This document shows, piece by piece, positions 1,377 to 19,564 of a stretch of 20,112 nt of DNA. Positions within the stretch are counted from its first letter, which is position 1; each line of letters starts with the position of its first letter. A program made the position numbers and the translations under genes. This stretch comes from a virus. The notes beneath the pieces were generated by a model. It was not told the DNA's origin, did not search any database, and saw nothing but the letters and a program-made list of their open reading frames with translations. The stretch spans positions 1 through 20,112 of the IMG/VR virus record IMGVR_UViG_3300032323_000374; one strand, given 5' to 3'.

Positions 1377-2039
1377 CTAATGTTTCGGGTTGAACTCACA
1401 ATCTTTCACTACGCACCAGCCACACAACGGTGTCTGTGTTGGATTCCATACGTCGTTGGCATGGCACGCAGCCAGCCTTGCGATGCGCTCCCGATATTTC
1501 CACCAGTGGGCATCAGCTTCTTCACGCGACATGCTCTGCTTGACCATGTCGTTCTTCACCACAAACAGCAATGCCGACTTGACCTGACGAATGTGCGGGA
1601 AGTGCGCGAACACCATCAGTGACATCAACACAAGCTGATCACGGTCTGGGTACTTGTTGTTCCCCGTCTTGTAATCCAGTATGTGCGCCGTTAAGTTCTC
1701 GTCGTTGATAATCAGCAGGTCGGCAATACCACGCACCCACGCATCCTCGGCATCCCACTTGCATGGTGACAAGTCTTCACGCAGCGCCATCTCGTACTCG
1801 CACAGCTTACGCCCCGGCTTAACCTTCAGCGCATCTAGTACGTCCTTGGCAAACGTGAAGTGAGCAGGCAGTGGTGTGTCGTCCCGCACGTATAGCTCGG
1901 CAGCGGTGTGGAAATCTTTACCATAGCGTGTTTGCTCAGTGTCAGGGAACGGGTACTTCTTCAGCACCTTGACTTCATGGTACCGACGAGCACAGCCTTC
2001 GAAGTCTTTCAGCGCGGAGTGCGACCAGCGTAGGTTCAT
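1377..2039 (-). CDS. Cas4/RecB-like PD-(D/E)XK exonuclease with Fe-S cysteines
   Basis: A 220-residue nuclease of the PDDEXK_1 (RecB/Cas4) group, expected to degrade or trim DNA ends. The catalytic pattern is visible: H44 in GKDFH, D107 in VRGIADLLI, D122-Y-K124 in LDYKTG, and Q135 as the likely QxxxY-type residue. C16 near the N-terminus plus C206-x2-C209-x4-C214 near the C-terminus matches the four-cysteine 4Fe-4S arrangement of Cas4 and AddB. The length is typical for stand-alone Cas4. The start has AAGGA nine bases upstream and overlaps the preceding stop by 4 nt. No cas1/cas2 or repeat array is nearby, so a replication/recombination role (lambda-exonuclease-like) is more likely than CRISPR adaptation. 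Confidence 0.87.
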   Translation of the reverse strand: MNLRWSHSALKDFEGCARRYHEVKVLKKYPFPDTEQTRYGKDFHTAAELYVRDDTPLPAHFTFAKDVLDALKVKPGRKLCEYEMALREDLSPCKWDAEDAWVRGIADLLIINDENLTAHILDYKTGNNKYPDRDQLVLMSLMVFAHFPHIRQVKSALLFVVKNDMVKQSMSREEADAHWWKYRERIARLAACHANDVWNPTQTPLCGWCVVKDCEFNPKH

Positions 2040-3918: not shown

Positions 3919-5886
3919 TTATTGTTTTGCGTCACCGTAGCGACGGTTACTGCCACTCTCCGCCTTGAGCGGTATACCCGGCAGGTACGCCGGTTCCTTC
4001 ACCATCTGGTCGTAGACCCATGCCTCTCCCTCCGAAACCTCAGTTTCAGGAACAAGTACTACGACTTCATCGTGCACGGTCAATACGCACGGATAACGTT
4101 TTTGTATCCGCAGCATGCCGTCAGTCATCACGCAGCGAGCAACCGCCTGAACAATGTTTTCAGTCAGCTTCCCACCATACATCTTCTTGAAGCTCTCGCC
4201 GTAGACCCACTGGATGCGCCCCTTGGCATCGGCAGAACCTTTCAACTCAGGATACCGCAAAGACAGACCGCTTGGCAAGACCACCTCGCCCTTCCTGAAT
4301 GTGACGCACTTGTGGGTGTATTCATGTCCTTCATGCAACGAACGCAGGATCAGGTCTTGGCACATCGCCCAGTAGTCCACCACAGGCTGCGCTGCAGCAC
4401 GGTACTTGTCGATGATCTCCTTCGCCGCCAAGCAATGCACGACTAGCTCCTCCTGCGTACAGGTGTGCGGGATAGTTGCCATCTTCTCAAGGTTCACATC
4501 CCACTCAAGGAACCGCTGCACCTTCTCCGGTGTCACCCCCAACATCTTGGCAATACGTTTGTCGTAACGCATGGGCGGCGCACCGAGGAAGCCGGTCAAC
4601 AACTGCGCAGCGAAACTTGTCCAGCCGAGGTTGTATCCCGCGCCCAGCATGGCGGACTTGGCGCTCTGTCGCAGGTCAGGGTGGCTCTCCTTGGTCATGC
4701 CCGGTATGTTGAACATCTGCGCACCGAACATAGAGTAGGCATCCTTACCCGAGCGGAAGATGTCCAGCATGTCATCGTACCCAGCCAGCCACGCCAGCAC
4801 ACGCGGTTCGATCTGCGAGAGGTCACACACCGCCAGCGAGTAGCCCTCTGGTGCCATGATCGCCTTACGCAAGAAGCTGCCACGCTTTAGGTTCTGCATG
4901 TTGATGCCGCTGCCCTTGGATGCAGTCCACCGCCCCGTGTGTGCGCCGTAGTAGTTCAGGGGAACCGGGAGCGTTCCACGTTGCGAGATGTCGTGGAAAC
5001 GTTGCGCTCGCGTTCTTTCAAGGGTGGACTTGACCTTGAGTCTAGCTTCGCATAAGAGTGAAATTTCTTTACGCTCACTGTTGAGAAGTGCTTGGAAGAG
5101 CGCGTCGTTTTTAGCAAGCGCCAAAGTCTGCTTGCCCGTAGTTTTACTCGTCTTGTATGGAACTTCACATCCCAACGTAGCCAACAAATCCGCGAATTGC
5201 TGGTTACTCGCCAGCGTCGCATCGCCCACCCCAAGCCGTACCAAAAGCTCTTCACGTTCTTCACGCTCCTCATCGATAGCTTCCCGCAACATGTCTGGGT
5301 CTAGCTCCAGCACGGGGTTGGTAAACATCTTCAACGTTAGGTCAATCAGTCGAAGTTCTTTCTGTGGGAAGTCAACAGACAGACGTTTGAAAACTTCTTC
5401 ACACAAGAATGTATCGTGGCGGCAGTAGTCAGCAAGCTCTTGCTCAACCTCGAAGCTGATGTCTGACAACCCATCGGTGCTGTGCACGGCACGACCTTTA
5501 GGCGGTAGCTCGAACTCCTCTGCAAGTTTGGCAAGACTGTTACCTGCCTCTACCCCACGCAGCGCACGCGCCATTGATAGCGAATCGAATATGAAGACCG
5601 GTCGCGCACCGTACACCCAAGAGAGAATGGCAACATCGAACTGCGCGTTGTGCGCAAGCACGGCAGTCTTAGACCAGTCGATGCTGTCAACCCACTCCTG
5701 TATCTTGTCACCACGCACCCACGTTGCTGGTAACTCGTCCCCATATTCTTTGATGCACATGCCGAACGCCTTGAAGCGCGGGTCACGTATGTACTCCTCG
5801 GTCGTCAACTTCGATAGCGTGTATTCTTTACTTGACCATCGCGTTTCGAAATCGACTACGAGCATTTTGTCGAAAGGTTTTGTCAT
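3919..5886 (-). CDS. polA: family A DNA polymerase with 3'-5' exonuclease
   Basis: Replicative phage DNA polymerase, 655 residues, lacking the 5'-3' exonuclease domain of bacterial Pol I. The proofreading domain is intact: DFET (D12, E14), NAQFD (N80-D84) and Y154-x3-D158. The polymerase motifs are intact: GRW near 318-320, motif A DLSQIEPR (D355), motif B R406-x3-K410 and Y418, and motif C VHDE (604-607). The residue matching E. coli Phe762 is Leu414. I chose the ATG at 5884-5886, four bases after the preceding stop. A GTG at 5919 is in frame but overlaps 29 nt. Neither has a strong ribosome binding site, so coupling is likely. The helicase and nucleases nearby form the replication module. 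Confidence 0.96.
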   Translation of the reverse strand: MTKPFDKMLVVDFETRWSSKEYTLSKLTTEEYIRDPRFKAFGMCIKEYGDELPATWVRGDKIQEWVDSIDWSKTAVLAHNAQFDVAILSWVYGARPVFIFDSLSMARALRGVEAGNSLAKLAEEFELPPKGRAVHSTDGLSDISFEVEQELADYCRHDTFLCEEVFKRLSVDFPQKELRLIDLTLKMFTNPVLELDPDMLREAIDEEREEREELLVRLGVGDATLASNQQFADLLATLGCEVPYKTSKTTGKQTLALAKNDALFQALLNSERKEISLLCEARLKVKSTLERTRAQRFHDISQRGTLPVPLNYYGAHTGRWTASKGSGINMQNLKRGSFLRKAIMAPEGYSLAVCDLSQIEPRVLAWLAGYDDMLDIFRSGKDAYSMFGAQMFNIPGMTKESHPDLRQSAKSAMLGAGYNLGWTSFAAQLLTGFLGAPPMRYDKRIAKMLGVTPEKVQRFLEWDVNLEKMATIPHTCTQEELVVHCLAAKEIIDKYRAAAQPVVDYWAMCQDLILRSLHEGHEYTHKCVTFRKGEVVLPSGLSLRYPELKGSADAKGRIQWVYGESFKKMYGGKLTENIVQAVARCVMTDGMLRIQKRYPCVLTVHDEVVVLVPETEVSEGEAWVYDQMVKEPAYLPGIPLKAESGSNRRYGDAKQ

Positions 5887-5890
5887 ATGT

Positions 5891-6154
5891 TTAGTTAAGT
5901 AGTCGTTGTGCTGCAACACCGCTTAGTTCTTCTCGAATCATCTCCATCGTAGAACCCAACATCATCACAGCCAATGACGGCGTGGTGTTGAAGTTGAATG
6001 TCTGCAACAGATGATCATCCTCGTCGAGCATCAGCAGCACAGCGTGTTTGTTTGGCGAAGCCTCGACCAAGAACTGACGTAGTGCTGCCAGCGTATTGTC
6101 GATATACTCCGCCTTCTCCTCATCCGACATTGGTTCGTCACTTGCAAGTTCCAT
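5891..6154 (-). CDS. hypothetical acidic protein
   Basis: 87 residues, starting MELASDEPMSDEEKAEY. The N-terminal 25 residues are acidic. The rest alternates helix and strand (KHAVLLMLDEDDHLLQTFNFN at about 36-56), ending in a helical segment. No motif is recognised. The ATG overlaps the preceding VRR-NUC stop as TGATG, with GGAG nearby, and the stop lies four bases before the polymerase start. This tight spacing suggests co-translation with the polymerase, and possibly a partner or regulator of it; that is inference from position only. Confidence 0.72.
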   Translation of the reverse strand: MELASDEPMSDEEKAEYIDNTLAALRQFLVEASPNKHAVLLMLDEDDHLLQTFNFNTTPSLAVMMLGSTMEMIREELSGVAAQRLLN

Positions 6155-7731: not shown

Positions 7732-8610
7732 TTAGAAAGAAAATTTGTCCAGCAGTTGCTCCACTTGGGCACGCACGTCAGTACGTACTTCCATGTTCTT
7801 ACGCAGTTCATCGGCATCTACTCCCGACAACAGGTTGGCAAGAGAGCGGCGAGTATCCTCAAGGTTCTCATCACCCACTACATTCAACGACTTGACGATC
7901 TCGCACAACTCCAGTGCACCTGTGACCAGCGAGTCGTGGAAGCGCCGGGTCTTGACCTCACCGTTGATGACATCGACTGCCAGCCGGTCAGACATACGCT
8001 TTAAGTGGTCACCCAGTCGGGCACGTACGTCAGCCATCGCAGTCTCGACACGCTCACTCTGCAGGCGCTCAAGTTGTTGACGCAGTTCTTGTTGCGCTGC
8101 ATTACCCACGTCCACACGGAAGTCACCCGCAGTCGGCACCGGCATGTAGCCCACCCGGAAGCGGAACTTGTCAGCGATAGCCTTGGCGGTGGGGTACTCG
8201 TCACGCTTGAACATGTCACCGAGTGCCATAGCTTGCGCCGTGATCAGCGTCGGGTACACATCCACGAACTTGTCCACCAGCGTGTTGAACTCCTCCTCGT
8301 ACTCATTCATACGAGCGGTGAACGCCATGAAGTTGACAGTCGGCAGCAAGCGCAGGCCGGAGTCAGACCACGGCAACGTGTTGTCATAAACAAAGGTACG
8401 TACCTTGCCCACCTGTTGATTGATCACGTCCAGTTCAGGGCGACCAGCCAGCAGGTTCTTGTTGACGCGTGCTGCGTCCTTGGCCTTGGCGGACTTGGTG
8501 CTGATGACCTCATCGGTTGTGCCCTTGTCCAGCTTACGCGCAGTCCATACGGATGCGTTGAATTCCACCAGCATGGCGCAGGTGTCGAGGTTGTATCGAG
8601 TAGTTTTCAT
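7732..8610 (-). CDS. DUF3150-like helical protein of MoxR-VWA cassette
   Basis: 292 residues, almost entirely helical. It has a conserved-looking middle LRLLPTVNFMAFTARMNEYEE (about 86-106) and VDKFVDVYPTLITAQAMALGDMF, and a heptad-like glutamine/arginine-rich helix (QQELRQQLERLQSERVET, about 173-190) that could form a coiled coil. The pattern of 'W ... L-AGR ... LP ... F-x-Y ... A-x-LG-x-F' is what I associate with DUF3150 proteins. These accompany MoxR/CobS-like ATPases and VWA/CobT-like proteins on conjugative elements. AAGGAG precedes the ATG. It is the last of three co-oriented genes. Assignment rests on pattern and neighbours; the role as an adaptor of the ATPase-VWA pair is inferred. 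Confidence 0.7.
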   Translation of the reverse strand: MKTTRYNLDTCAMLVEFNASVWTARKLDKGTTDEVISTKSAKAKDAARVNKNLLAGRPELDVINQQVGKVRTFVYDNTLPWSDSGLRLLPTVNFMAFTARMNEYEEEFNTLVDKFVDVYPTLITAQAMALGDMFKRDEYPTAKAIADKFRFRVGYMPVPTAGDFRVDVGNAAQQELRQQLERLQSERVETAMADVRARLGDHLKRMSDRLAVDVINGEVKTRRFHDSLVTGALELCEIVKSLNVVGDENLEDTRRSLANLLSGVDADELRKNMEVRTDVRAQVEQLLDKFSF

Positions 8611-8631
8611 GTCATGCTCCTTTCGGTTTAA

Positions 8632-9822
8632 TTAAACGCCCTCTACTAGCGACGAGATGTTGACCAGCTTGCCTTGCGGTGGCGTGAAGCGGTCGTTGTC
8701 AATGACACCCCACAACTGCGGGATGTCGGTCTGCAGGTTGTTGTTGCCGTAGAAGTAGCCATCGGTCAGCCAGATGATGCCCTTGGCCTTGATGTCGTTC
8801 TGTCGGATGTGGTCAAGCACACACTGCGGCTCAGTGCCGCCACCACCACGCGGTTTCAATGCCCGTGCAATAGAAGCGAAGTCCTGCTTCTCGAACACCT
8901 GCTCACCACAGACGGCGCTGTCCCACCAGACGATGCGTACCTTCTCAGGGTTGGCGATCTCACAGATACGAGCGATCTCACCGAACAGCACAGGGTAGAT
9001 ACCGCCCATCGAGCCAGACGTATCACCGGCGATCACTAACTCACCCGTAGTCTCAGCGAAGTGTGACCACAGCAGGATGCCCAGCGGCAGCATGCGCTTG
9101 TTGGGTGGCGATAGCCGAGACAGGTCGTGCCCCATACAGACTGATGTAGCGAACTCACGAATAGCCGAGCGCCAATCGGTATGCCGGGGTGCCAACGCAC
9201 CATCGATGACTGTACTGCGTGAGCCTTGGCCTGCTAGGTTGTTGGCAGTGATCACGCCTTGGCGCACCGCTTCCTCAACCATCTCCTTCAGTTCGCCAGC
9301 CTCGGCCTCCTCGAAGTCACCCTCCATGTGCTCGTCCAACGACTGCCCACCGCCTTCGTCCTCCTGCTCCTCGCTGTCCTTGATCAACTCCTTCAAGACC
9401 TCAAGGATGGACTTGTTAGCAAAGCGTGCTTTGTCGATCAGCAAGTCATCGGTAGGCCGCTCAACGAACGTGAACGTGGGGTCGATCTCCTCGATCATGC
9501 CGTTGACCACGTAGTCAGCCGCCCTCGCCAAGTGCTCTGGATACTTCTTGGCTAGTGGCTTGTACTCGGTGCAGTGGTGCAGCATCTTGTGGCCGTTCTC
9601 ATGCAGCACGAGGTAGCGCAACTGCTTGCGGTTCAAGCTTTCGCAGAACTTGTTGCCGTAAATAACGTCCCGCCCATTGGTGGCAGCGGTTGGCATCGTG
9701 TCGCTGAACTTGACCGCACCGATCATTGCCACGCCAGCCATGCGGGTGAAGTCCTTGTGGCGCATGATGTCCACGTGGGTTGCCTCGATACGCTCGGGCA
9801 GCGGTAGATTACTCCAAGCCAT
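8632..9822 (-). CDS. zincin-like plus VWA domain protein (DUF2201-type)
   Basis: 396 residues with two domains. The N-terminal domain carries the HExxH helix LVLHENGHKMLHH (HENGH 74-78) and the follow-up AADYVVN (101-107), as in the DUF2201 putative metallopeptidase domain. A long acidic linker (about 146-185) follows. The C-terminal VWA domain has an intact MIDAS: DTSGS 267-271, T330 in the GGGGT stretch, and D354 in WLTDG. Such proteins work as the metal-dependent partner of MoxR-type AAA+ ATPases, and the ATPase gene lies directly upstream (9-nt gap). AAGGAGG is five bases before the ATG. The substrate is unknown. A link to cobalt chelatase (CobT) is possible but unsupported by other cobalamin genes. 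Confidence 0.9.
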   Translation of the reverse strand: MAWSNLPLPERIEATHVDIMRHKDFTRMAGVAMIGAVKFSDTMPTAATNGRDVIYGNKFCESLNRKQLRYLVLHENGHKMLHHCTEYKPLAKKYPEHLARAADYVVNGMIEEIDPTFTFVERPTDDLLIDKARFANKSILEVLKELIKDSEEQEDEGGGQSLDEHMEGDFEEAEAGELKEMVEEAVRQGVITANNLAGQGSRSTVIDGALAPRHTDWRSAIREFATSVCMGHDLSRLSPPNKRMLPLGILLWSHFAETTGELVIAGDTSGSMGGIYPVLFGEIARICEIANPEKVRIVWWDSAVCGEQVFEKQDFASIARALKPRGGGGTEPQCVLDHIRQNDIKAKGIIWLTDGYFYGNNNLQTDIPQLWGVIDNDRFTPPQGKLVNISSLVEGV

Positions 9823-9831
9823 AACTCCTCC

Positions 9832-10965
9832 TTACCGGATAGAAAGTAGTTCAGCGTTCTTAGCCAGCATCGACGTGAACGCAGGCACCGACATGAACAG
9901 CGAGGCTTTCTGTAGGTTCTTTGACGTGACGGTGGTGAACAGGCCACGCATCTCGCCACGCATGCGCTCGACGTAGGTGGTCAACGCCTCGGCCTCGTTG
10001 CGGTCTGACACACGGTTGACGAACTTGAACACTTGAACAGTTTGAACAATCGCGTTGTCCGGCACAGGTGTGCCCGTGGGGTCAGCCACTACAGACTCAT
10101 ACAGCGGCATCTGATCACCGAAGCGAATGATCGACATGATCTTGGCAGCGAACGGCGCACCGACCGTACCCTCCAACGCCTGCTGCAGCGACTCGTCGTC
10201 CATACCAGCGCGGCACTTGATGACATCGGACGCAGCTTCCATCGAGCGTGGTGAGGCGTACGCATCCTGTGCGGCATCGCGTGGGTTGAAGATGTCAGGG
10301 TTGTGCTGCTCCAGCTTCTTGTCGGCAAACTTACCACCCGGCAAGTAGTCGGTGAACGAATCGAACACGGTGGGGTACTGGTGCACAGTCGTGATCAACT
10401 CAGGTGCCAGCCCACGGTTGGTGGCGTACTGCACCCACTCCGGCATGTTGGACTTGCGCATCTTGATTCTGATCAGACGGTTGCGCTGGTGTGCCTGCAG
10501 CATGTCGCCCAGACCCTCCAACGCTAGGTTGGTGGTGGCAAACACCACGCTACCCTCGGGCATGTACAGGTTGCCTAGCCTGCGCTCGTAGATCAGCGGA
10601 GCCAACTGCGGCTTGATGTAGGACGGTGCCTTGCCGATCTCGTCCAGACAGATCACCACAGGCCGGGAGCCATCCAGTCCCTTGCAGTACTCCTTGCTGA
10701 CCCCGAAGCGGTCGTTGGGAATCTCCCTCGACACGCCCATCTCGTTGTCGATGGTTGGCATCCAGATGGAACCGTCAGCTAGTTGCTGGCAATCGATGAT
10801 GCCGGGGAAGATGTGGTTTGCGAACTGCGGCATGGCCTTCAGTGCGTGGTAGATCGACGTTTTGCCGATGCCGTTTTCGCCCTCGATCAGCACCGTGCGT
10901 AGGTGGCCGACAGAAGAGATGACACTGGTTGCCTGAGAAAAGGATAAGAATTTTGCTGCGTTCAT
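9832..10965 (-). CDS. MoxR-type AAA+ ATPase
   Basis: 377 residues. AAA+ core: Walker A GENGIGKT (29-36), Walker B VVICLDE (103-109), sensor-1 FATTN (142-146), and an arginine-rich RNRLIRI (161-167) that may contain the finger. The KPQLAPLIYERRLG segment is typical of MoxR/CobS/CbbQ-like ATPases, which remodel proteins together with a VWA partner. The C-terminal 200 residues are helical lid plus a family-specific extension. AAGGAG lies seven bases before the ATG. It is first in the three-gene cassette and sits behind a good candidate promoter. Function in the phage is unknown; annotation as cobalamin chelatase CobS would be over-reading. Confidence 0.92.
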   Translation of the reverse strand: MNAAKFLSFSQATSVISSVGHLRTVLIEGENGIGKTSIYHALKAMPQFANHIFPGIIDCQQLADGSIWMPTIDNEMGVSREIPNDRFGVSKEYCKGLDGSRPVVICLDEIGKAPSYIKPQLAPLIYERRLGNLYMPEGSVVFATTNLALEGLGDMLQAHQRNRLIRIKMRKSNMPEWVQYATNRGLAPELITTVHQYPTVFDSFTDYLPGGKFADKKLEQHNPDIFNPRDAAQDAYASPRSMEAASDVIKCRAGMDDESLQQALEGTVGAPFAAKIMSIIRFGDQMPLYESVVADPTGTPVPDNAIVQTVQVFKFVNRVSDRNEAEALTTYVERMRGEMRGLFTTVTSKNLQKASLFMSVPAFTSMLAKNAELLSIR

Positions 10966-11011
10966 TGTGTTTCTCCTTTGTAAATACTTTTGTGAAAGAT
11001 GTTATGGCTAG

Positions 11012-11041
11012 ATTATAACCATGAAAGATTACGGTGTGCAA
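11012..11041 (-). promoter_or_regulatory. candidate sigma70 promoter for MoxR-VWA cassette
   Basis: On the minus strand a perfect TATAAT (11012-11017) is preceded by TTGCAC (11036-11041) with an 18-nt spacer. It lies in the 110-bp gap upstream of the MoxR gene, with its 5' untranslated leader of about 40 nt leading to an AAGGAG site. The -10 is excellent and the -35 is weak. Confidence 0.6.
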
Positions 11042-11075: not shown

Positions 11076-12056
11076 TCATAGGAATACTCGGCGGGGTAGC
11101 CGCTCGGGGAACATAGGCAACTGCACCTTGGCGTTGGGTGTGTGGAGGTCGCAGCACTTCAGCACGGCGTACTTGAATGTCCGCATGAACTCATCGGGTT
11201 GTATCTGTGCCTTGACCCTCTCCCACATCAGCCCACGGTCACGTGCAGACTCGTGGTTCATCTCCGCCTCCAGCACCTTCCATTTCTTTGAAGCAATAAA
11301 GGTCAGCACCTCACCGGCTAACAGCATGAGGGTGGGCAGCGTCTTGTCGAGCGTTAACGTGTCCTTCATGGCGTACATCTTCACCACCCACGACACGTTC
11401 TCCCCATTGAACTCACCCACACCCCGCGCCTCGATCTTGATTGGGTCGAAGTTCCCACCCCAGTACCGATCATGCAGGTGTACCCCAGCCAGCAAGTCCT
11501 CCGACCGCATGAGCGCCAAGTTAGCCACGGGCAACAACTTCTCCCAAACTTGTTGTGCTAAGACCTTATGCTCCAAGGACGTGTGGCGGGTGAAGATCGG
11601 CTCGTGGTGTGACAACTCCAGTACGAGTTTGTCGTTCGCGTCGAAGGTCAGAAGCGTGCGGTGGTTGGGGATGAACGGTGCGTAGACCATCATGCCTTTG
11701 TCTGTCTCCAACCTCGGCACCCACGACTGCCATCGATGGTGGGCAAAGAACCTAGACATACCCCGCGTGCCGTTGTTCGTCACCTCCACTTGGCGCAGGT
11801 ATGGGTGAACGAGATGACCCCCAACCGCTACCTTCACCACCTCCTCCGGCTTGGGTCGCAGGTACTTGATGATGGGTTGGTCGTTGCGCAGCAGGATGTA
11901 CATACCCTCCTTGTGCACCAGCCCATAGTCTCGCCCACGTTTCTTGCGCAGCGGTACGATGTGCGGTTGACCATCGTAAGGTTTGATTGAATTGAATACC
12001 TCTGCTGCTGTCTCGTAGTCAGGTATTGGTGGTTGATCTGCGTATGCGTCCTTCAT
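11076..12056 (-). CDS. uncharacterised 326-residue protein
   Basis: A soluble protein starting MKDAYADQPPIPDYETAAEV. No signal peptide or membrane segment. It has many histidines and aromatics (SRFFAHHRWQSWVPRLETDK about 101-120; GVHLHDRYWGGNFDPIKIEA about 192-211) and a helical C-terminal third. The N-terminal part (RDYGLVHKEGMYILLRNDQP) reads like a beta-rich fold. No catalytic motif is recognised. The ATG overlaps the preceding micro-gene by ATGA, and its own stop is followed by the promoter of the MoxR cassette, so it ends a transcription unit or is followed by a second promoter. Function unknown. Confidence 0.8.
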   Translation of the reverse strand: MKDAYADQPPIPDYETAAEVFNSIKPYDGQPHIVPLRKKRGRDYGLVHKEGMYILLRNDQPIIKYLRPKPEEVVKVAVGGHLVHPYLRQVEVTNNGTRGMSRFFAHHRWQSWVPRLETDKGMMVYAPFIPNHRTLLTFDANDKLVLELSHHEPIFTRHTSLEHKVLAQQVWEKLLPVANLALMRSEDLLAGVHLHDRYWGGNFDPIKIEARGVGEFNGENVSWVVKMYAMKDTLTLDKTLPTLMLLAGEVLTFIASKKWKVLEAEMNHESARDRGLMWERVKAQIQPDEFMRTFKYAVLKCCDLHTPNAKVQLPMFPERLPRRVFL

Positions 12057-12439: not shown

Positions 12440-12459
12440 CTTACTTCTCCTCAATAAAT

Positions 12460-12482
12460 CTCAGGGACACCATGTCCCCGAG
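12460..12482 (-). repeat. dispersed 23-nt hairpin, copy 1
   Basis: Arms CTCRGGGAC and GTCCCYGAG of the dispersed family, fully pairable on the minus strand with one G-U pair. It lies in the 45-bp gap between the peptidase stop and the ribosome binding site of the next gene; ATTTATT follows it, so terminator activity would be weak. Confidence 0.75.
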
Positions 12483-12484
12483 TG

Positions 12485-13636
12485 TTAGTGCACGTGGCAC
12501 ATATCAAACAAGTCGAGCAGCACAGACTCGACATCGAACCCAGCTTGCACAGACTCAAGCGCGTAGTCCAACTCATCACGCGATATGTTCTTCAGTCGCA
12601 TGTGCTTGCGTGCTAGTGCTGGATCATCAGGGTACGCAGCTTGTGCAATGAATGACTGCAGCGTATCGGTGTAACCCACCGTGGCATCCATCAGCGCGTC
12701 GATGACATCGAGTCGGTAGTACTTCATGTCCTCGTACTCATCCCACGATGAAGGGTCGCCATCCCACCACGCCTTGTCGTATGCGCTGGTGTATCCCTTG
12801 TACTCACCCCAGTCCTTCTCGTCGATCACAGTCGGGTCACGATCTGTTGGTAGGTTGTCCCAGTTGATACGCAGCACAGCGTCAGCGAGTCGTTGCAAGT
12901 GTGCGGTATCTAATGACTCGTGCTCGGTGTGCTCACGGTAATACCCCACGCTGATGTTGGTGCACTCGGGGATGATGTCAACAAACTCTGCGGTGTCGGT
13001 ATACACACCGCTGTCATCGGGTGAGTACATGAAGATGTCAGGGTGAATGTCGTTGAGTGCATTGGCGAGTGTCTGCGCAAACAGATCAGAGCAACACCTA
13101 CCCCATCCCTGATGAGAGATCACGCTGTCTGTGCCACGGCGGTCGAATGCGATAGCCCGATCAAACTGAGCAAGCAAGTCTTTGTGCTGCTTGGCAATGA
13201 ACGTCGCACCGATGCCACCCTTCTCCTCACCCTGCGTGAAGATGTAGTAAGCAGGTACACCAGCGTGCATCATGTGCATCAGCAACGCAACACCAGCGCC
13301 ATCATCAGCACCGAGTTGTACGCCACCGTACGCATGCCACACATCACCCTTGACCTTGACTAAGTTCTTGCCATCAGCAGCGTGGACTGTGTCAACGTGT
13401 GCAACGAATAGTGTGCGGTGTTGCTTGGTGGTACGTGCGTCAACGTGCAGGTTGCCTGCGTTGTCTGTGAATGTGCGTGGCTTTAAGTGTGCAGGTACAG
13501 CATCTTCCAACCACGTAGTGAACATGGCTACGCCTTTGCCACCATGCGGACGCTTCACGGTTAGCGCAGTCTTCAATGTGTGCATGAGCATGGTTGTACC
13601 CTCAGTGCGTGTGGTTTGTTTAGCTTTGCGTGTCAT
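12485..13636 (-). CDS. M20/M28-type zinc peptidase
   Basis: 383 residues. The di-zinc peptidase signature is complete: H80-x-D82 in FVAHVDT, D111 in GADDGAG, E137-E138 in TQGEEKGG, D165 in AFDRRG, and H236 in HTEHESLD. This is the arrangement of M20/M28/M42 aminopeptidases and PepT-like enzymes. The catalytic domain covers about 30-255. A 125-residue acidic, tryptophan-rich C-terminal extension has no recognised family. There is no signal peptide, so it would act in the cytoplasm. GGAG precedes the ATG. Roles could be cleaving host peptides to recycle amino acids, or processing a phage or host protein; the sequence does not decide. Confidence 0.87.
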   Translation of the reverse strand: MTRKAKQTTRTEGTTMLMHTLKTALTVKRPHGGKGVAMFTTWLEDAVPAHLKPRTFTDNAGNLHVDARTTKQHRTLFVAHVDTVHAADGKNLVKVKGDVWHAYGGVQLGADDGAGVALLMHMMHAGVPAYYIFTQGEEKGGIGATFIAKQHKDLLAQFDRAIAFDRRGTDSVISHQGWGRCCSDLFAQTLANALNDIHPDIFMYSPDDSGVYTDTAEFVDIIPECTNISVGYYREHTEHESLDTAHLQRLADAVLRINWDNLPTDRDPTVIDEKDWGEYKGYTSAYDKAWWDGDPSSWDEYEDMKYYRLDVIDALMDATVGYTDTLQSFIAQAAYPDDPALARKHMRLKNISRDELDYALESVQAGFDVESVLLDLFDMCHVH

Positions 13637-13638
13637 GG

Positions 13639-14904
13639 TTACTCTCCTTCGTTCTCGTCGTTGTTGTACTCGTCGGCATGGTCGGGGTGGATGGTGAGCG
13701 TGTTACCTTGTGCGTCAGTCACCTCGATGCTGTCCTCGTCATCGCTGTACCACTCGTTGCTGTGCTCACACTCCCACGCATGATCGCGGTGTTCGTACTC
13801 GCCACTAGCTAACGTGATGACGCCGTTCTGATCCAGATAGTCAACGTCGTAGTGCTCCTCAGTTGACTCAAGGAATATCACGTTGTTCTCGTGTATCTCG
13901 AACTGATGGCCGTGGCGTGTGTATGCGGTGACGTAGTTATCTCTGCAGCTACTGCATACATGGTTCGACTCACCACGCCCAACCCAATACATGTCCTCGG
14001 GGTGTTGGTAGGAACCGCAGTCAGCGCACTCCTCTGACTCATCCTCACTCTCTGGTGTGCCGTCGGTGTTGTTGCATACGTACTCACCGCCATCTCTGAT
14101 GACGAGGCACAGCTTGCCATCGTGTCGTTCGACATCAACGTTCTGTACATCACCGTCGATGTATGGTGCAAGGAAGGCAGAGGATGTGTAGCGTGGTTCG
14201 AGGTGTGCCATGCGTGCGCCTTCAGGCCAACCACCCCTGTGCTCGTACCCTTGTTGCTTCAGCCATGCTTCGAGCATCTCGTCAGCGTATGAGTAGCCCT
14301 CGCCTTTCTTGTAGCTACGCACATAGCACTTGTAGTTCTCGTAGGTATCCTCGTACACCAGCGCACGGCCACGCACATCGCCGTCAACCACACGCCGTGC
14401 CATACCCCAGCCGAGTGCAGGTGAGTAGACTCTGTAGGGATGGTGCTCGTGGTGGCAGTCGTTCCATCGCATACATGAGTGTGGCCCACGTTGTAGCGTG
14501 TCGAGTATCTCGTCGGTGGTACGCACGATCTCGCACCCTGACGCTGAGTGCAGCGCAGCGATGTCACGTATCTGATGGTCGGCCAGCTTGGGGAAGTGGC
14601 GGTGCAGATACTTGCCGATGGTAGTTATGGTCTGCTTGTTGTCGTGGCCTGCTCGGTCGTCGCGTGTGTAGGCCAGACGGTTGGGGTCACTTGTGGAAAT
14701 GTGCGGCCACTCAAGTACCAGCAAGTGCCAATCTTTCGGTGGAGAAAGTTTGACTGCACACCACACTGCCTCGTGGAATGAATAGCTGCGCTGCTCACGT
14801 GCATGCCAGCCACGCACACCCGATGGGTCATAGCGTAGTACCTGTATGAGTGAGTGCATCCAGTCGATGCGTGACACAGGGTCGTACTCGTATAAGTCTC
14901 TCAT
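13639..14904 (-). CDS. 421-residue zinc-ribbon phage protein
   Basis: Starts MRDLYEYDPVSRIDWMHSLI at the ATG of 14902-14904, with AAAGGAG eight bases upstream. The longer open frame to 15057 overlaps the previous gene and has no site. The N-terminal domain has a striking TTIGKYLHRHFPKLADHQIRD (about 94-114), a pattern I have seen in phage proteins of unknown function. A cysteine/histidine-rich segment (144-155: CMRWNDCHHEHH) follows. A C-terminal zinc ribbon, C293-x2-C296-x20-C317-x2-C320, sits before an acidic tail ending in EYNNDENEGE. It lies 2 nt from the peptidase. Possible roles are nucleic-acid or protein binding; no enzyme motif is seen. Confidence 0.82.
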   Translation of the reverse strand: MRDLYEYDPVSRIDWMHSLIQVLRYDPSGVRGWHAREQRSYSFHEAVWCAVKLSPPKDWHLLVLEWPHISTSDPNRLAYTRDDRAGHDNKQTITTIGKYLHRHFPKLADHQIRDIAALHSASGCEIVRTTDEILDTLQRGPHSCMRWNDCHHEHHPYRVYSPALGWGMARRVVDGDVRGRALVYEDTYENYKCYVRSYKKGEGYSYADEMLEAWLKQQGYEHRGGWPEGARMAHLEPRYTSSAFLAPYIDGDVQNVDVERHDGKLCLVIRDGGEYVCNNTDGTPESEDESEECADCGSYQHPEDMYWVGRGESNHVCSSCRDNYVTAYTRHGHQFEIHENNVIFLESTEEHYDVDYLDQNGVITLASGEYEHRDHAWECEHSNEWYSDDEDSIEVTDAQGNTLTIHPDHADEYNNDENEGE

Positions 14905-14909
14905 GGTTG

Positions 14910-15743
14910 TTACTCCTTTCGCTGTGGTAAAAAACTCGGGGACGGGATGTCCCCGAGTCGTGGTGCTACGGTTACTACTGTTTCTTCCTTCGTGGTAAAT
15001 GCTTCGCCGAGGCGTGTCATCTCTGCGCCTTCCTGTGCGGTAAGTAATCTCACCCATTCAACGGACGCTCTGCGTATGCCAACGTCCTCTAGTCTGAGGA
15101 TGCACCGCTCGATGCAGTCCGCGCAGTACTTCGCCCACTCTGCTTTCGCTGCATCGCCTGACCGCACGGCATCGTCGTACGTTGCCATGTACTGCAACCA
15201 TTCTTGTTTCCACGCATCAACACGCTTTGACTTCTGCGTGCGGATGATTACTTTCTCGTTGGAAAATAGTGGTGCTGCTGTGCGTGTGTTCGCTTTGTTG
15301 AATAGCTCGGTGTGTCGTTGAATGAATGGACGCTTTACTTCTTCGGGTATCCAGTCCGACCAATGTGGTTTGCCCAATGCTTCGGGCGTTTGCTTCTCGC
15401 GCTGCTGCTTCAAGCGTAGGCCATACAACCTTTTCTGTAGCAGTTGCAGGTACGCGCTGAATAATTCTGCTCGCTCGGGATGGTTGTGTTTCTCTGATGT
15501 GTACTTGTCGATCTTCGCTCGTGTCCTGTGCATCTCTGCGAGTAACTCCTCGATCATCACATTCCACGGCGCGTAAACGCCATAGCGCATACGCTCTGCT
15601 TTCAACAACGCTTTGCGTTTCACTTGCGCTCTATCGATAAGGTTGTAGATCGTGCCTGCAGAGTAGCCTCGTGCTTCGAGTCGCTTGTAGAGTTTCTTCT
15701 TCGTGAGTTCAAAGTATTTCTGTGGTTTAGATGGTTGTACCAT
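14910..15743 (-). CDS. basic helical protein, possibly DNA-binding
   Basis: 277 residues from the ATG at 15741-15743, which has GAGG five bases upstream. An in-frame extension to 15890 runs through the repeat-rich non-coding gap and is rejected. The N-terminal 60 residues are very basic, with LYKRLEARGYSAGTIYNLID resembling a helix-turn-helix. The middle is a long helical region with lysine/arginine-rich segments. C-terminal residues (PRLGDIPSPSFLPQRKE) are encoded by the copy-2 hairpin and its T-run. No family is recognised. The gene's first codons carry one of the GGTTGTAC repeats, so autoregulation is plausible but unproven. Confidence 0.75.
   Translation of the reverse strand: MVQPSKPQKYFELTKKKLYKRLEARGYSAGTIYNLIDRAQVKRKALLKAERMRYGVYAPWNVMIEELLAEMHRTRAKIDKYTSEKHNHPERAELFSAYLQLLQKRLYGLRLKQQREKQTPEALGKPHWSDWIPEEVKRPFIQRHTELFNKANTRTAAPLFSNEKVIIRTQKSKRVDAWKQEWLQYMATYDDAVRSGDAAKAEWAKYCADCIERCILRLEDVGIRRASVEWVRLLTAQEGAEMTRLGEAFTTKEETVVTVAPRLGDIPSPSFLPQRKE
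14929..14957 (-). terminator. intrinsic terminator made from hairpin copy 2
   Basis: On the minus strand a perfect 9-bp stem (arms CTCGGGGAC / GTCCCCGAG at 14935-14957, loop of 5) is directly followed by TTTTTT. This is a canonical Rho-independent terminator, but it lies inside the last codons of the gene at 14910-15743, a few bases before the ribosome binding site of the next gene. It may partially terminate or tune expression between the upstream genes and the long downstream operon. Confidence 0.7.
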
Positions 15744-15809
15744 GTTGTCCTCTGTCAAGAAGGTTGTACCAAGTTGCCACGACCGTGACAGTACGTGACC
15801 GCCTGAGAT

Positions 15810-15825
15810 GCTAGTGCTGGTGCGG
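15810..15825. repeat. 16-nt direct repeat core, copy A
   Basis: GCTAGTGCTGGTGCGG, identical to the copy at 16021. It is flanked by CTGAGA on the left and TTTTCAG on the right, which can pair to close a stem around it. Confidence 0.75.
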
Positions 15826-15965
15826 GTTTTCAGAGGGCGGGCAAAAAATAGTCTACATTCCCACCTAAATGCAAGTATAGAACAAACCAAAGGAAGGTTG
15901 TACTTGGTTGCGTGAGTTTTTCGAGAGAGTGCAAGGAATGAGATACAACCATTAGTCTGGTTCTC

Positions 15966-16006
15966 TAATAATAATAATTTATATGTTATGTATACTATTT
16001 TTTAGT
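15966..16006. other. A+T-rich tract
   Basis: About 40 bases that are nearly all A or T, inside a window that is otherwise around half G+C. It lies between the two 16-nt repeats and could be a DNA unwinding element or a UP/-10 region. Confidence 0.55.
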
Positions 16007-16020
16007 GTGTCCTCTGAAAC

Positions 16021-16036
16021 GCTAGTGCTGGTGCGG
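16021..16036. repeat. 16-nt direct repeat core, copy B
   Basis: Same 16-nt core as copy A, flanked by TGAAAC on the left and GTTTCA on the right: a perfect 6-bp inverted repeat with different bases from copy A's arms. Confidence 0.75.
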
Positions 16037-16126
16037 TGTTTCACGCTTTTCATTTGCGTCACGGTCGCGTCCACATGATACAACCATCTTGACAATAGTC
16101 TAGTGTTGCTTTCAAGCAAGTATCTC

Positions 16127-16318
16127 TCACAAACATGTTGTGGAGAGTTTGATTGCACGTAGTTCGCGTCGCTCGTCGAGTGAGCGCAGTTGATACCCGA
16201 CTGCTTCGCCTGCGTCGTTCCACCAGTAGCCGAGCACTTCCCAGTTGCGACGCTGGTACTTGATGGTGTTGGGATACTCAGGGACACTGCGTCCCTGAGT
16301 TGATGTGTGGGTGTGCAT
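16127..16318 (-). CDS. small basic hypothetical protein
   Basis: 63 residues from the ATG at 16316-16318, preceded by AAAGG. It starts MHTHTSTQGRSVPEYPNTIK; codons 7-14 are made from hairpin copy 3. The middle, QRRNWEVLGYWWNDAGEAVGYQ, looks like a short beta hairpin, followed by arginine-rich RSLDERRELRAIK. No family is recognised. It is the last gene before the non-coding gap on the leftward strand. Confidence 0.6.
   Translation of the reverse strand: MHTHTSTQGRSVPEYPNTIKYQRRNWEVLGYWWNDAGEAVGYQLRSLDERRELRAIKLSTTCL
16277..16299 (-). repeat. dispersed 23-nt hairpin, copy 3
   Basis: A perfect 9-bp stem, arms CTCAGGGAC / GTCCCTGAG, loop of 5. It is inside the first codons of the 63-residue gene, where it could occlude translation initiation. 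No T-run follows on either strand. Confidence 0.75.
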
Positions 16319-16966: not shown

Positions 16967-16994
16967 TTGAATCTCCTTCGCGTGGTTGATTGAA

Positions 16995-17017
16995 CTCGGG
17001 GACAACGTGTCCCTGAG
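16995..17017 (-). repeat. dispersed 23-nt hairpin, copy 4
   Basis: Arms CTCGGGGAC / GTCCCTGAG (one G-T or A-C position). It lies in the 5' leader of the leftward transcript between the promoter and the first ribosome binding site. Confidence 0.72.
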
Positions 17018-17047
17018 ATGTGGCGGCGCAATGCCAAACACAGCTAT

Positions 17048-17154: not shown

Positions 17155-17316
17155 ACTATTCCTCACCCGCTCTCCAACTTTTATTGCAATTTTGTCAATC
17201 TGACGGCAACCCCACCCCCTAAAAAAGTAAATGCCCGCCAAAAAGCCAAAATCGGACCCCCCACCATTATTATAAAAATTCTAACAAGTCTTGTCTAATG
17301 TTTGACATGCACGGAC

Positions 17317-17348
17317 AAAAAAAGACCCCGGAAAGGGGGGACCGGGGT
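17317..17348 (-). terminator. leftward-facing intrinsic terminator
   Basis: Arms ACCCCGG (17325-17331) and CCGGGGT (17342-17348) with a 10-nt loop. Read on the minus strand, the stem is followed by C then TTTTTTT (17317-17323), a good Rho-independent terminator. On the plus strand the A-run precedes the stem, so the same hairpin would only structure the 5' leader. It would shield the early promoter region from antisense reads coming out of the late module. Confidence 0.65.
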
Positions 17349-17377
17349 TAATAAAACAACAAGGAGAAATATAACTA

Positions 17378-17446
17378 ATGACACAACGGTGTCAAGTGCA
17401 GTATATACTGCGCCCAACGAGACCACAAGGAGTCTTCGCGTGTTAG
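17378..17446 (+). CDS. 22-codon leader ORF before terminase
   Basis: Starts MTQRCQVQYILRPTRP at an ATG 11 bases after an AAGGAG. It ends in TAG at 17444-17446, overlapping the GTG start of the terminase small subunit (17440). The last codons contain that gene's AAGGAG, so ribosomes on the leader would deliver reinitiation at the GTG. It may be a translational coupling leader rather than a functional protein. Confidence 0.4.
   Translation: MTQRCQVQYILRPTRPQGVFAC
17398..17411. promoter_or_regulatory. 14-bp perfect palindrome
   Basis: GCAGTATATACTGC, inside the leader ORF upstream of the terminase genes. It could be a dimeric repressor operator or chance; no second copy was noticed. Confidence 0.35.
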
Positions 17447-18072
17447 AGCATTTGGTTGATGGTAGTGTGCAGTTCGAGCCGGAGGTGATCGCCACCCCCG
17501 AGCGTCTACGCCTACTTGAAAAAACAACACCACAAGAGTTATTCGAGAGTCAGATCAGTACCGCTGATTGGTTAGCCGATCTGGGCGCAGCCCCAGACCC
17601 GCTTGAGAAGGCGCAAAACGCCGAGGCAAACCGTGCATTTACGGCACTTGCCACCCAAGCAACACCAGAAGAGCAGAAAGCGGCGTTAACAAAACTGAAT
17701 ACACCTGCCGCCGTGCGACATCTTGTCGGCATGCTAACGGCTTACGACTGGAAGTTTGTCGAACAGGCAACGGAGCTGCGTGGTTATGCGGTCAGTCAGC
17801 TCCTTGAAGAGACGAAACACCCCGACGCAAAGATCAGACTGAAGGCGCTGGAGCTTCTGGGCAAAGTTACCGAAGTGGCATTGTTCACAGAGCGCGTCGA
17901 GGTGAAGAAAACCGACATGACAGACGCTGAACTCGACAAGCGGATCAAAGAGAAGCTAGAGAGACTGGCAAAAATCGTGGATGTGACGGATGTTACCGAC
18001 GTGACAGACATCGTAGAGGCTGACGCGGCGGAAAAAGATGGGGAGGACGCAGATGAATCTGACCCCGCATGA
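17440..18072 (+). CDS. terS: terminase small subunit
   Basis: 210 residues, starting at GTG with AAGGAG seven bases upstream. A TTG far upstream (17302) is in frame but runs through the terminator hairpin and has no site. Residues about 87-170 (LNTPAAVRHLVGMLTAYDWK, then EETKHPDAKIRLKALELLGK) resemble a DNA-binding and oligomerisation region seen in phage small terminases, followed by the helix AELDKRIKEKLERLAKIV. It would recognise the packaging start on concatemeric DNA and recruit the large subunit. The C-terminal tail has the tandem DVTDVTDVTD and a very acidic end. The assignment relies mainly on position before the large subunit plus the helical pattern. It overlaps the large subunit gene by 20 nt. 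Confidence 0.82.
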   Translation: MLEHLVDGSVQFEPEVIATPERLRLLEKTTPQELFESQISTADWLADLGAAPDPLEKAQNAEANRAFTALATQATPEEQKAALTKLNTPAAVRHLVGMLTAYDWKFVEQATELRGYAVSQLLEETKHPDAKIRLKALELLGKVTEVALFTERVEVKKTDMTDAELDKRIKEKLERLAKIVDVTDVTDVTDIVEADAAEKDGEDADESDPA

Positions 18073-19564
18073 GATAACGGCGCTCCAACGAGTGCTGCCC
18101 ACGCTAAATCCGCAGGAGAAAGCCGAGTTATTGGCTGACCTCGAAGAGCGGGCGGCGCGTGCGGCTAAGAAAGCGGCCCAGACGAACATGTTGGGGTTTG
18201 CCACCGAGGTATATCCGGGTTTTAAGGTCGGAGCGCACCACAAAAAGCTCGCCAAGATATTCGAGGATGTCATTGAAGGGCGCAAAAAGAGGGTAATTAT
18301 CAATATTGCACCGCGTATGGGTAAGTCGGAGTTCTCCTCCTTCCTGTTCCCGGCGTTTTTCCTTGGTAAGTATCCTGAGAAGAAGATCATTATGGGCACG
18401 CACACAGCGGGCCTGTCTGAAGATTTCGGTCGTAGAGTAAGGAACCTGATTGAAAGTGAAGAGTACCAAACAATATTTCCCAACACTCAAGTCGCCGACG
18501 ACCAGAAAGCGGCGGGAAAATGGTCTACCAGCGCGGGAGGACAATATTACGCAGCAGGTGTTGGTGGAGCACTGGCCGGTCGTGGTGCAGACCTTTTTGT
18601 CATCGATGACCCGCATTCAGAACAAGACATGAAGGCGAACAGCCGCTTGGCGTTTGACAACGCGTGGTCTTGGTTCCAGACAGGTCCACTGCAGCGTCTG
18701 ATGCCGGGCGGTGCGATTATCGTGATCATGACGCGCTGGAGCCTGATCGACCTGACGGGCAAGCTGATTGACTTTTCAATAAAAAACCCCGATGCTGATC
18801 AGTGGGAGATTGTGGAGCTGCCTGCCATCCTCCCATCGGGTAAGTCGCTGTGGCCTGAACAATGGCCGGTAGAGCAGTTAGAGTCTAAACGCGCCGCACT
18901 CGACCCGCGTTTTTGGAACGCGCAGTACATGCAGCAACCTACGGCGGATGGCTCCGCAGTTATTCCGCGAACGGCGTGGAAGATATGGGAGCACGAGCGA
19001 CCGCCGCAGTGTGAGTTCATCATACAGTCGTGGGATACCGCGCACGAAACGAAAACGACCTCTGACTACAGCGCCTGCACAACGTGGGGTGTCTGGTACA
19101 ACGACGAGGACGGCAGCAGTCCACACCTGATATTGCTCGATGCGTTCAAGGACAGGATGGCGTTTCCTGAACTGAAAGAGACCGCACACAAGCACTATAA
19201 AGAGTGGGACCCAGATGCGTTCATTGTTGAAAAGAAGGCGGCAGGTTCGCCGCTGATTCAAGAACTGCGCAGGATGGGTATACCGGTGCAGGAGTTCACA
19301 CCGTCACGGGGTAACGACAAGATCGCCCGTATGAACGCGGTGTCTGATCTGTTTGCCTCGGGTAAGGTGTGGGCACCCGACACACGTTGGGCGCGAGAAG
19401 TCATTGAAGAAGTAGCGGCGTTCCCGGTCGGCGAGCACGATGACTACGTCGATACCACCACACAGGCGCTCCTGCGATACCGGCAGGGCGGATTCATTCC
19501 ATTACCAACTGATGCAGAAGACGAGCCTACGCTATTTCGCCGCAGGCAGTTTGCTTATTACTAA
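18053..19564 (+). CDS. terL: terminase large subunit
   Basis: 503 residues; the DNA-packaging motor ATPase and headful/cos nuclease. The ATPase domain has an atypical Walker A APRMGKS (86-92), Walker B LFVIDDP (181-187) and coupling motif MTRWS (226-230). The RNase H-like nuclease domain has D328 in SWDTA, E393 in VEKKAAG and D463/D464 in GEHDDYVD. Both domains are intact and the length is normal. I chose the ATG at 18053 because GGAGG lies six bases upstream; an ATG at 18038 is less well placed. It overlaps the small-subunit gene by 20 nt and is followed after 9 nt by the dioxygenase. Confidence 0.96.
   Translation: MNLTPHEITALQRVLPTLNPQEKAELLADLEERAARAAKKAAQTNMLGFATEVYPGFKVGAHHKKLAKIFEDVIEGRKKRVIINIAPRMGKSEFSSFLFPAFFLGKYPEKKIIMGTHTAGLSEDFGRRVRNLIESEEYQTIFPNTQVADDQKAAGKWSTSAGGQYYAAGVGGALAGRGADLFVIDDPHSEQDMKANSRLAFDNAWSWFQTGPLQRLMPGGAIIVIMTRWSLIDLTGKLIDFSIKNPDADQWEIVELPAILPSGKSLWPEQWPVEQLESKRAALDPRFWNAQYMQQPTADGSAVIPRTAWKIWEHERPPQCEFIIQSWDTAHETKTTSDYSACTTWGVWYNDEDGSSPHLILLDAFKDRMAFPELKETAHKHYKEWDPDAFIVEKKAAGSPLIQELRRMGIPVQEFTPSRGNDKIARMNAVSDLFASGKVWAPDTRWAREVIEEVAAFPVGEHDDYVDTTTQALLRYRQGGFIPLPTDAEDEPTLFRRRQFAYY

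Follow-up and report, generated by a model that had tools for sequence, protein, structure and literature searches.

An accessory AAA+ ATPase, zincin-VWA and DUF3150 gene cassette of phages and plasmids, a possible remodeller of DNA-bound complexes

What might a phage do with an AAA+ ATPase, a zincin-like protein with a VWA domain and a mainly helical DUF3150-like protein, all encoded side by side in a slot bordered by its DNA polymerase gene? The window analysed here, which is the whole of the IMG/VR virus record IMGVR_UViG_3300032323_000374 (20,112 bases, a genome fragment of a freshwater-type phage), carries such a trio as three co-oriented open reading frames (ORFs) on its minus strand, transcribed in the order AAA+ ATPase, zincin-VWA protein of the DUF2201 family, DUF3150-like protein, with gaps of 9 and 21 bases between the stop of one gene and the start of the next. 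A first-pass annotation of this DNA had described the same three genes, and the ORFs, their Pfam and PHROG matches and their homologues bear this description out. On comparative analysis we propose, with a probability of roughly 45%, that the trio encodes an accessory, early-acting AAA+ machine with a metal-ion-dependent adhesion site (MIDAS), which would remodel DNA-bound recombination or defence complexes while the phage genome becomes established in the host.

The first gene of the trio (9832..10965, minus strand) encodes a 377 aa protein that matches phrog_1297 (123 bits) and whose best match in a profile search was midasin (8e-20), with ClpB-type AAA+ proteins also matched. The Pfam AAA_5 model gives it 20.4 bits, which is under the gathering cut-off of 22, and gives 24.9 bits, above the cut-off, to the plasmid homologue L042. 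The Walker A (GENGIGKT, residues 29-36), Walker B (VICLDE, with D108 and E109) and sensor-1 (N146) motifs had been reported as intact, and indeed K35, D108, E109 and N146 are invariant across 59 diverse phage homologues; among the homologues R240 is likewise invariant and R163 near-invariant. Judged by its sequence, the protein is a MoxR/midasin-like AAA+ ATPase and a putative active ring motor.

The second gene (8632..9822, minus strand) encodes a 396 aa protein that matches phrog_1314 (196 bits), with both DUF2201 domains scoring above their cut-offs (PF13203, 26.5 bits against 23.2; PF09967, 40.2 bits against 26.4). It combines a zincin motif of the HExxHxxxxH type (HENGH, residues 74-83) with a complete MIDAS (D267-S269-S271, T330 and D354). 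The HENGH and MIDAS residues, both noticed at first pass, are invariant in 61 diverse phage homologues, and the third zincin histidine, H83, is kept in 60 of the 61. The nearest PDB folds to its structural model (predicted local distance difference test score, pLDDT, 87) are the MIDAS domain of MDN1/Rea1 and also NorD. We note that PHROG 1314 bears the label 'HNH endonuclease', which is repeated in many RefSeq phage records such as NC_023581.1; domain and PHROG searches found no HNH domain in the window protein, and the label is likely a propagated annotation error.

Profile and fold searches thus independently return midasin, Rea1/MDN1 and NorD, which fits the ring-plus-MIDAS remodelling machines. 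In MoxR/VWA systems the ATPase forms a ring and the MIDAS, as in midasin, binds an acidic ligand that belongs to a partner or a substrate. Midasin/Rea1, NorQD, CbbQO and RavA-ViaA all pair a MoxR-type or dynein-like AAA+ ring with a MIDAS VWA domain, as is proposed here. Their substrates are known, and to our knowledge none of them has a zincin domain or a DUF3150 partner. The part of the first-pass annotation that saw the trio as a protein-remodelling machine is therefore in keeping with the midasin, ClpB-type, Rea1 and NorD matches; the virion-assembly use that it had also considered is disfavoured by the natural separation of the trio from the structural genes described below.

The third gene (7732..8610, minus strand) encodes a 292 aa, mainly helical protein. 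It scores 19.0 bits against PF11348 (DUF3150), below the cut-off of 24.9, while its homologues pass the cut-off (28.3 bits for L029, which is 70% identical to the window protein, and 27.6 bits for G005). Its AlphaFold model (pLDDT 89.5) matches an annotated DUF3150 phage protein with a template modelling (TM) score of 0.80. Because homologues pass the cut-off and the model matches an annotated member, the DUF3150-like name given at first pass was right, and on sequence and predicted fold the window protein is a divergent member of the family. Seven further fold matches to the model were found in BFVD at E<=1e-3, and none in the PDB at E<=0.001. Close chromosomal relatives were absent from the genome contig collection searched. 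One open-licence literature library contained no mention of DUF3150, and in the part of the open-licence literature that we saw, DUF2201 is mentioned, apparently never with a function. Judged from that one library, DUF3150 as a constant third partner of AAA+/VWA pairs appears undescribed, and it could be known elsewhere. In one relative (G009, 15269-16144) the DUF3150 gene contains a single in-frame TGA, attributable to decay, sequencing error or recoding.

The three genes travel together. In IMG/VR, at least 561 stretches encode a relative of the DUF3150 protein, and the top 80 of them were used here; with the VWA protein as anchor, the number of stretches was at least 536. Of 124 non-redundant viral loci, 101 contain all three genes, every time on one strand, so that the recurrence the first-pass annotation had suggested looking for is amply present. 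Where the flanks were sufficient, the trio was complete in 27/27 DUF3150-anchored loci, and the VWA-anchored loci had the ATPase in 36/36 and DUF3150 in 31/36. Gene order, in turn, is not fixed: 49 of the 101 loci read AAA-VWA-DUF3150, 29 read DUF3150-AAA-VWA, 20 read VWA-AAA-DUF3150 and 3 read AAA-DUF3150-VWA. Subunits of a single complex would be expected to show just this pattern, a changing order with constant membership and strand, and we infer from these gene arrangements that the three proteins may form one. The association extends beyond the phage family of the window, since Planktothrix phage Pag-Yong1 has the complete trio, and beyond phages, since Burkholderiales and Rhodovastum plasmids carry AAA-DUF3150-VWA and a search of genome contigs with plasmid DUF3150 sequences returned 71, of which 46 have the whole trio in this order. 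The plasmid cassettes are homologous to that of the window in all three genes and also lie on one strand; they differ from it in gene order and in having DUF3150 proteins of only about 25-33% identity, and two of the plasmids have PRTRC and type IV secretion system (T4SS) genes nearby. In Schitoviridae (Presley), Rhizobium phage TM3_14A and Thermus phage phiFa the ATPase and VWA genes are present, and in the Schitoviridae and Rhizobium phages a DNA polymerase or helicase gene is found in the vicinity of these pairs.

Members of the window's phage family have genomes of about 64-66 kb, and two of them (G001 and G002), whose major capsid protein (MCP) was assigned via annotated relatives, carry the trio together with a family A polymerase, nucleases and terminase. 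The terminase is nearest to those of Pelagibacter HTVC023P-type phages, DSL-LC04 and Planktothrix phage Pag-Yong1. DSL-LC04, HTVC023P and 023Pt share the MCP (61-64%), the terminase and portal-size genes with the trio-bearing phages, and their complete records contain none of the three trio proteins (hmmsearch, E<=10). The same dissociation is seen at much closer range. Three near-full-length sister phages (G023, G025 and G027, 61.9-62.6 kb) are 83-97% identical to trio-bearing sisters in the MCP, 83-90% in TerL and 75-82% in PolA, and all three trio genes are missing from them. In G025, the gene that directly follows DUF3150 in the trio-bearing relative G038 is kept (20954-21490, 58% identical) and sits between terS and polA on a single contig, which means that absence of the trio from this locus is not due to truncation; a few unsequenced kilobases elsewhere could hold a copy. 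The slot between terS and polA is variable. In G025 and G027 it holds a Cys-rich protein and an M28-type peptidase gene, and in G023, also without the trio, the slot contains, at 28069-30900, an amidoligase paired with a class II glutamine amidotransferase-like protein. In a sample of records of at least 50 kb retrieved without use of the trio, the trio was present in 6/7 capsid-anchored and 0/4 polymerase-anchored records. Since structural relatives and sister phages exist without it, the trio is, on gene content, an accessory cassette, part of neither core virion assembly nor core replication. Membership in a core replication module was considered and rejected: KPP25, which shares the polymerase and a nuclease, has no trio gene and neither do the same-polymerase sisters, although the ATPase and VWA pair does occur in TM3_14A, a phage with the polymerase, SNF2 helicase, nuclease and DUF927 genes in common.

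What such a cassette might act upon is suggested by the company that DUF3150 keeps elsewhere. The IncC plasmid pAR060302 resembles the window in encoding an AAA+ protein, DUF3150 and a VWA protein with HExxH, here in the order AAA (CbbQ-type), hypothetical, ssb, bet, exo, DUF3150, VWA (CobT-type, HEAAH). In bacterial operons from Deltaproteobacteria and one metagenome-assembled genome of Bacteroidota (L450, L451, L452, L454 and L456, some complete and others cut at contig ends), a classical AAA protein (PF00004) is followed by DUF1257, a DUF3150 protein exceeding the Pfam cut-off, a single-stranded DNA-binding protein (SSB), a SWIM-finger protein with ATRAxxRAL, a Cas4-like PD-(D/E)XK nuclease and a UvrD helicase. 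This bacterial operon has the look of a recombination or defence module not described so far. Directly upstream of it in Desulfobacter latus lies a ZorA/ZorB-like pair (MotA/ExbB plus OmpA; L451:505-3146), which was not found at the remaining DUF3150-operon loci compared. The DNA-processing company of DUF3150 points to recombination and DNA-end processing. The published context of IncC and SXT agrees with this link in part. The bet and exo genes of IncC are directly activated by AcaCD (PMC4207636), SXT has a large recombination operon headed by s089 (PMC4344509), and deletions of SXT bet, exo, s067, s068 and s070, whose correspondence to the trio genes is not established, lower transfer by at most 10-fold (PMC2791158). 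IncC and SXT elements are also stated to repair CRISPR-made breaks during conjugation, according to a paper as cited in PMC11541004.

Several observations weigh against the recombination link, which depends on distant DUF3150 relatives with different partners. The IncC ATPase is CbbQ/NorQ-type and that of the bacterial operons belongs to PF00004, unlike that of the window; the VWA protein is CobT-like in IncC, where the genes are moreover split by ssb-bet-exo, and the bacterial operons contain no MoxR or VWA gene of the window type. Alignment of the window proteins with their IncC counterparts by hhalign is weak, with probabilities of 34%, 0.4% and 16%. In the window's phage family there is no Pfam-detectable SSB and no annealing protein was found, and the PD-(D/E)XK nuclease occurs in trio-less phages as well. 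Finally, in the N4-type (Schitoviridae, Presley) and Rhizobium (TM3_14A) phages the ATPase and VWA pair occurs with no DUF3150 detected, as it does in phiFa.

With these reservations, the recombination company of DUF3150, together with the disfavoured virion and cobalamin roles discussed below, leads us to favour an accessory, early remodeller of DNA complexes. In this scheme, the AAA+ protein would be the motor ring, and the zincin-VWA protein would serve as a MIDAS adaptor coupling the motor to its substrate, which it may also clip, the zincin domain adding possible proteolysis. The helical DUF3150 protein, as the constant third subunit, would recognise or scaffold the substrate. Expressed from the variable slot between terS and polA, the machine would act early in infection on strand-annealing, exonuclease and SSB complexes or on host nucleases engaged with the incoming genome, and as an outcome the element could have its DNA repaired, replicated or protected on entering a new host, a benefit to lytic phages and conjugative elements alike. 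A broader form of this proposal, which we regard as doubtful, casts DUF3150 as a partner for AAA+ proteins in general, through which exchangeable motors are brought to RecA-independent recombination complexes; the phage cassette would then be a mobile remodeller of such complexes that helps incoming DNA survive breaks made by defence systems. The motors in question would be MoxR-type with zincin-VWA in phages and plasmids, CbbQ-type with CobT-type VWA in IncC, and classical AAA in the bacterial operons.

The main rival reading is that the trio is a dedicated anti-defence or host-takeover machine which, early in infection, would disassemble or cleave one particular host complex with a defence or regulatory function, and which has no direct tie to phage recombination. 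The patchy presence of the trio in near-identical phages, in a slot otherwise holding a peptidase pair or the amidoligase/glutamine amidotransferase pair, its sharing by lytic phages and conjugative plasmids, which face the same host defences, and the invariant zincin motif would all suit such a role. We nevertheless consider it rather unlikely, given that the chromosomal operons in which DUF3150 relatives occur are concerned with DNA processing and not obviously with anti-defence, and that the trio matches no known defence protein beyond a hit of 16.6 bits to AbiLi on the P-loop, the only one obtained with PADLOC, whose models describe defence and not counter-defence. A role as a virion-assembly chaperone, in which a MoxR-VWA-peptidase pair folds or processes structural proteins, was proposed for group 2.2 jumbo phages (PMC7824862), where MoxR is accompanied by a VWA protein fused to an N-terminal metallopeptidase, an architecture like that in the window; a precedent exists in Acidianus two-tailed virus, and RPP1 encodes four virion proteins near its N4 gp24/25 homologues. 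The window cassette differs from the jumbo phage pair in containing DUF3150 and in dissociating from the structural module, as the phages that share MCP, TerL and, in the case of DSL-LC04, HTVC023P and 023Pt, portal-size genes lack it, and plasmids carry it with no virions to assemble. Since the presence of the trio does not track the structural module, this role is not supported in the window's phage family, and we hold it improbable overall.

Plasmids also raise the prospect that the trio helps to assemble conjugation-like or membrane machines and was inherited from replicons in which it adjoins T4SS genes. VirB-type genes closely follow the trio in Robbsia and Burkholderia plasmids, but in Simplicispira and Rhodovastum it is not beside T4SS genes within the stretch read, no T4SS was seen in the phages, and the modest transfer defect of the SXT deletions, with the same proviso about gene correspondence, speaks against it too; we find this reading more improbable still. 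Least credible of all, in our estimate, is that the genes are auxiliary to cobalamin synthesis, as was proposed for viral AAA-VWA pairs, possibly in part for different families, whose CobS/CobT would hijack host CobN and raise B12 production (PMC8651126). The window VWA protein has no match to the CobT domains PF06213 and PF11775 up to E 1, in contrast to the IncC VWA protein, which does match CobT; CobN was found in 0/20 trio-carrier records, with the control positive in 5 genomes; and DUF3150 has no place in cobaltochelatase. The cobaltochelatase (cobST) label thus fails on the absence of both CobT and CobN matches, in line with the first-pass remark that no cobalamin gene is visible here. 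The first-pass reading as a whole had been offered with three findings that would speak against it, namely genes that do not recur together, a third protein unrelated to DUF3150 and constant co-occurrence with cobalamin genes, and none of these was observed.

AAA+-VWA pairs are already known in phages, and the first-pass annotation was right that related gene sets occur in both phages and conjugative elements. One of the closest parallels is N4 of the Schitoviridae, in which gp24 (AAA+ ATPase) and gp25 (vWFA/metallopeptidase) similarly form a pair near replication genes, and tblastn with the window VWA protein finds N4-like VWA homologues. The N4 pair is middle-expressed (PMC4193335). Both N4 genes count as part of the N4-like core. 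The window cassette differs in being dispensable in sister phages, and no DUF3150 was found in Presley; the window phage itself is not N4-like, its terminase being nearest to the HTVC023P/DSL-LC04 type.

The trio was also said to have its own TATAAT-containing promoter. A candidate sigma-70-like site (TGCACA-17-TATAAT, 11012..11040, minus strand) is present upstream of the ATPase gene, and across the region 4 promoter-like sites were found against 4.3 expected by chance, so the site on its own proves nothing. In three relatives (L002, L003 and L005), TATAAT is retained at about the same distance from the ATPase gene, and in the window's clade the fraction of loci with a promoter-like site in the 150 bases upstream of the ATPase is 0.32, compared with 0.10 in shuffles and with 0.02 upstream of the VWA gene. 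Given this clade enrichment, a host-type promoter at the head of the trio is plausible, and the earlier claim holds in this weaker form. The ATPase gene is preceded by a strong Shine-Dalgarno sequence (AAAGGAG, 10973..10979, minus strand) that is identical in the same three relatives.

The remainder of the window delimits the slot and shows what else resides in it. The downstream border of the slot is the family A DNA polymerase gene (3919..5919, minus strand; PF00476, 92.5 bits), and the upstream border is a terminase small subunit candidate (17302..18072, plus strand; phrog_51, 21.6 bits), whose homologues adjoin TerL in G001-G003 and which is followed by the terminase large subunit gene (18038..19564, plus strand; phrog_38, 331 bits). 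A PD-(D/E)XK exonuclease gene (1377..2039, minus strand) belongs to PF12705, a Pfam domain also found in the nuclease of the bacterial DUF3150 operons. Upstream of the ATPase lies a gene for a 326 aa protein (11076..12056, minus strand); a cluster of 325-aa-type genes occupies this position in 45/124 non-redundant loci, and the window's gene may belong to it. Further upstream, an M28-type peptidase (12485..13636, minus strand; PF04389, 28.6 bits, phrog_4191) is paired with a 472 aa Cys-rich protein (13639..15057, minus strand) that matched no Pfam family. Copies of the two in the trio-less G025 and G027 are 53-55% and 42-46% identical, respectively, making 12485-15057 a second mobile pair. The slot also contains four copies of a near-perfect palindrome, CTCRGGGAC-N5-GTCCCYGAG (12459-12483, 14934-14958, 16276-16300 and 16994-17018), with zero expected in shuffles; three of the four fold into strong hairpins, and the palindrome occurs in the nearest relatives (L002 and L003) and not in the remaining loci checked. 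These are candidate terminators or regulator sites. No tRNA genes were found within the window.

Three labels often given to phage AAA+/VWA pairs, cobST, HNH endonuclease and virion chaperone, do not fit the cassette described in this analysis. With a third subunit that is constant, four different gene orders, a clear split between sister phages that have the cassette and those that lack it, and the repeated association of DUF3150 with recombination genes, what was an annotation puzzle becomes a testable one, and a single testable mechanism would unite widespread genes of plasmids, conjugative elements and phages that have so far had no known function.

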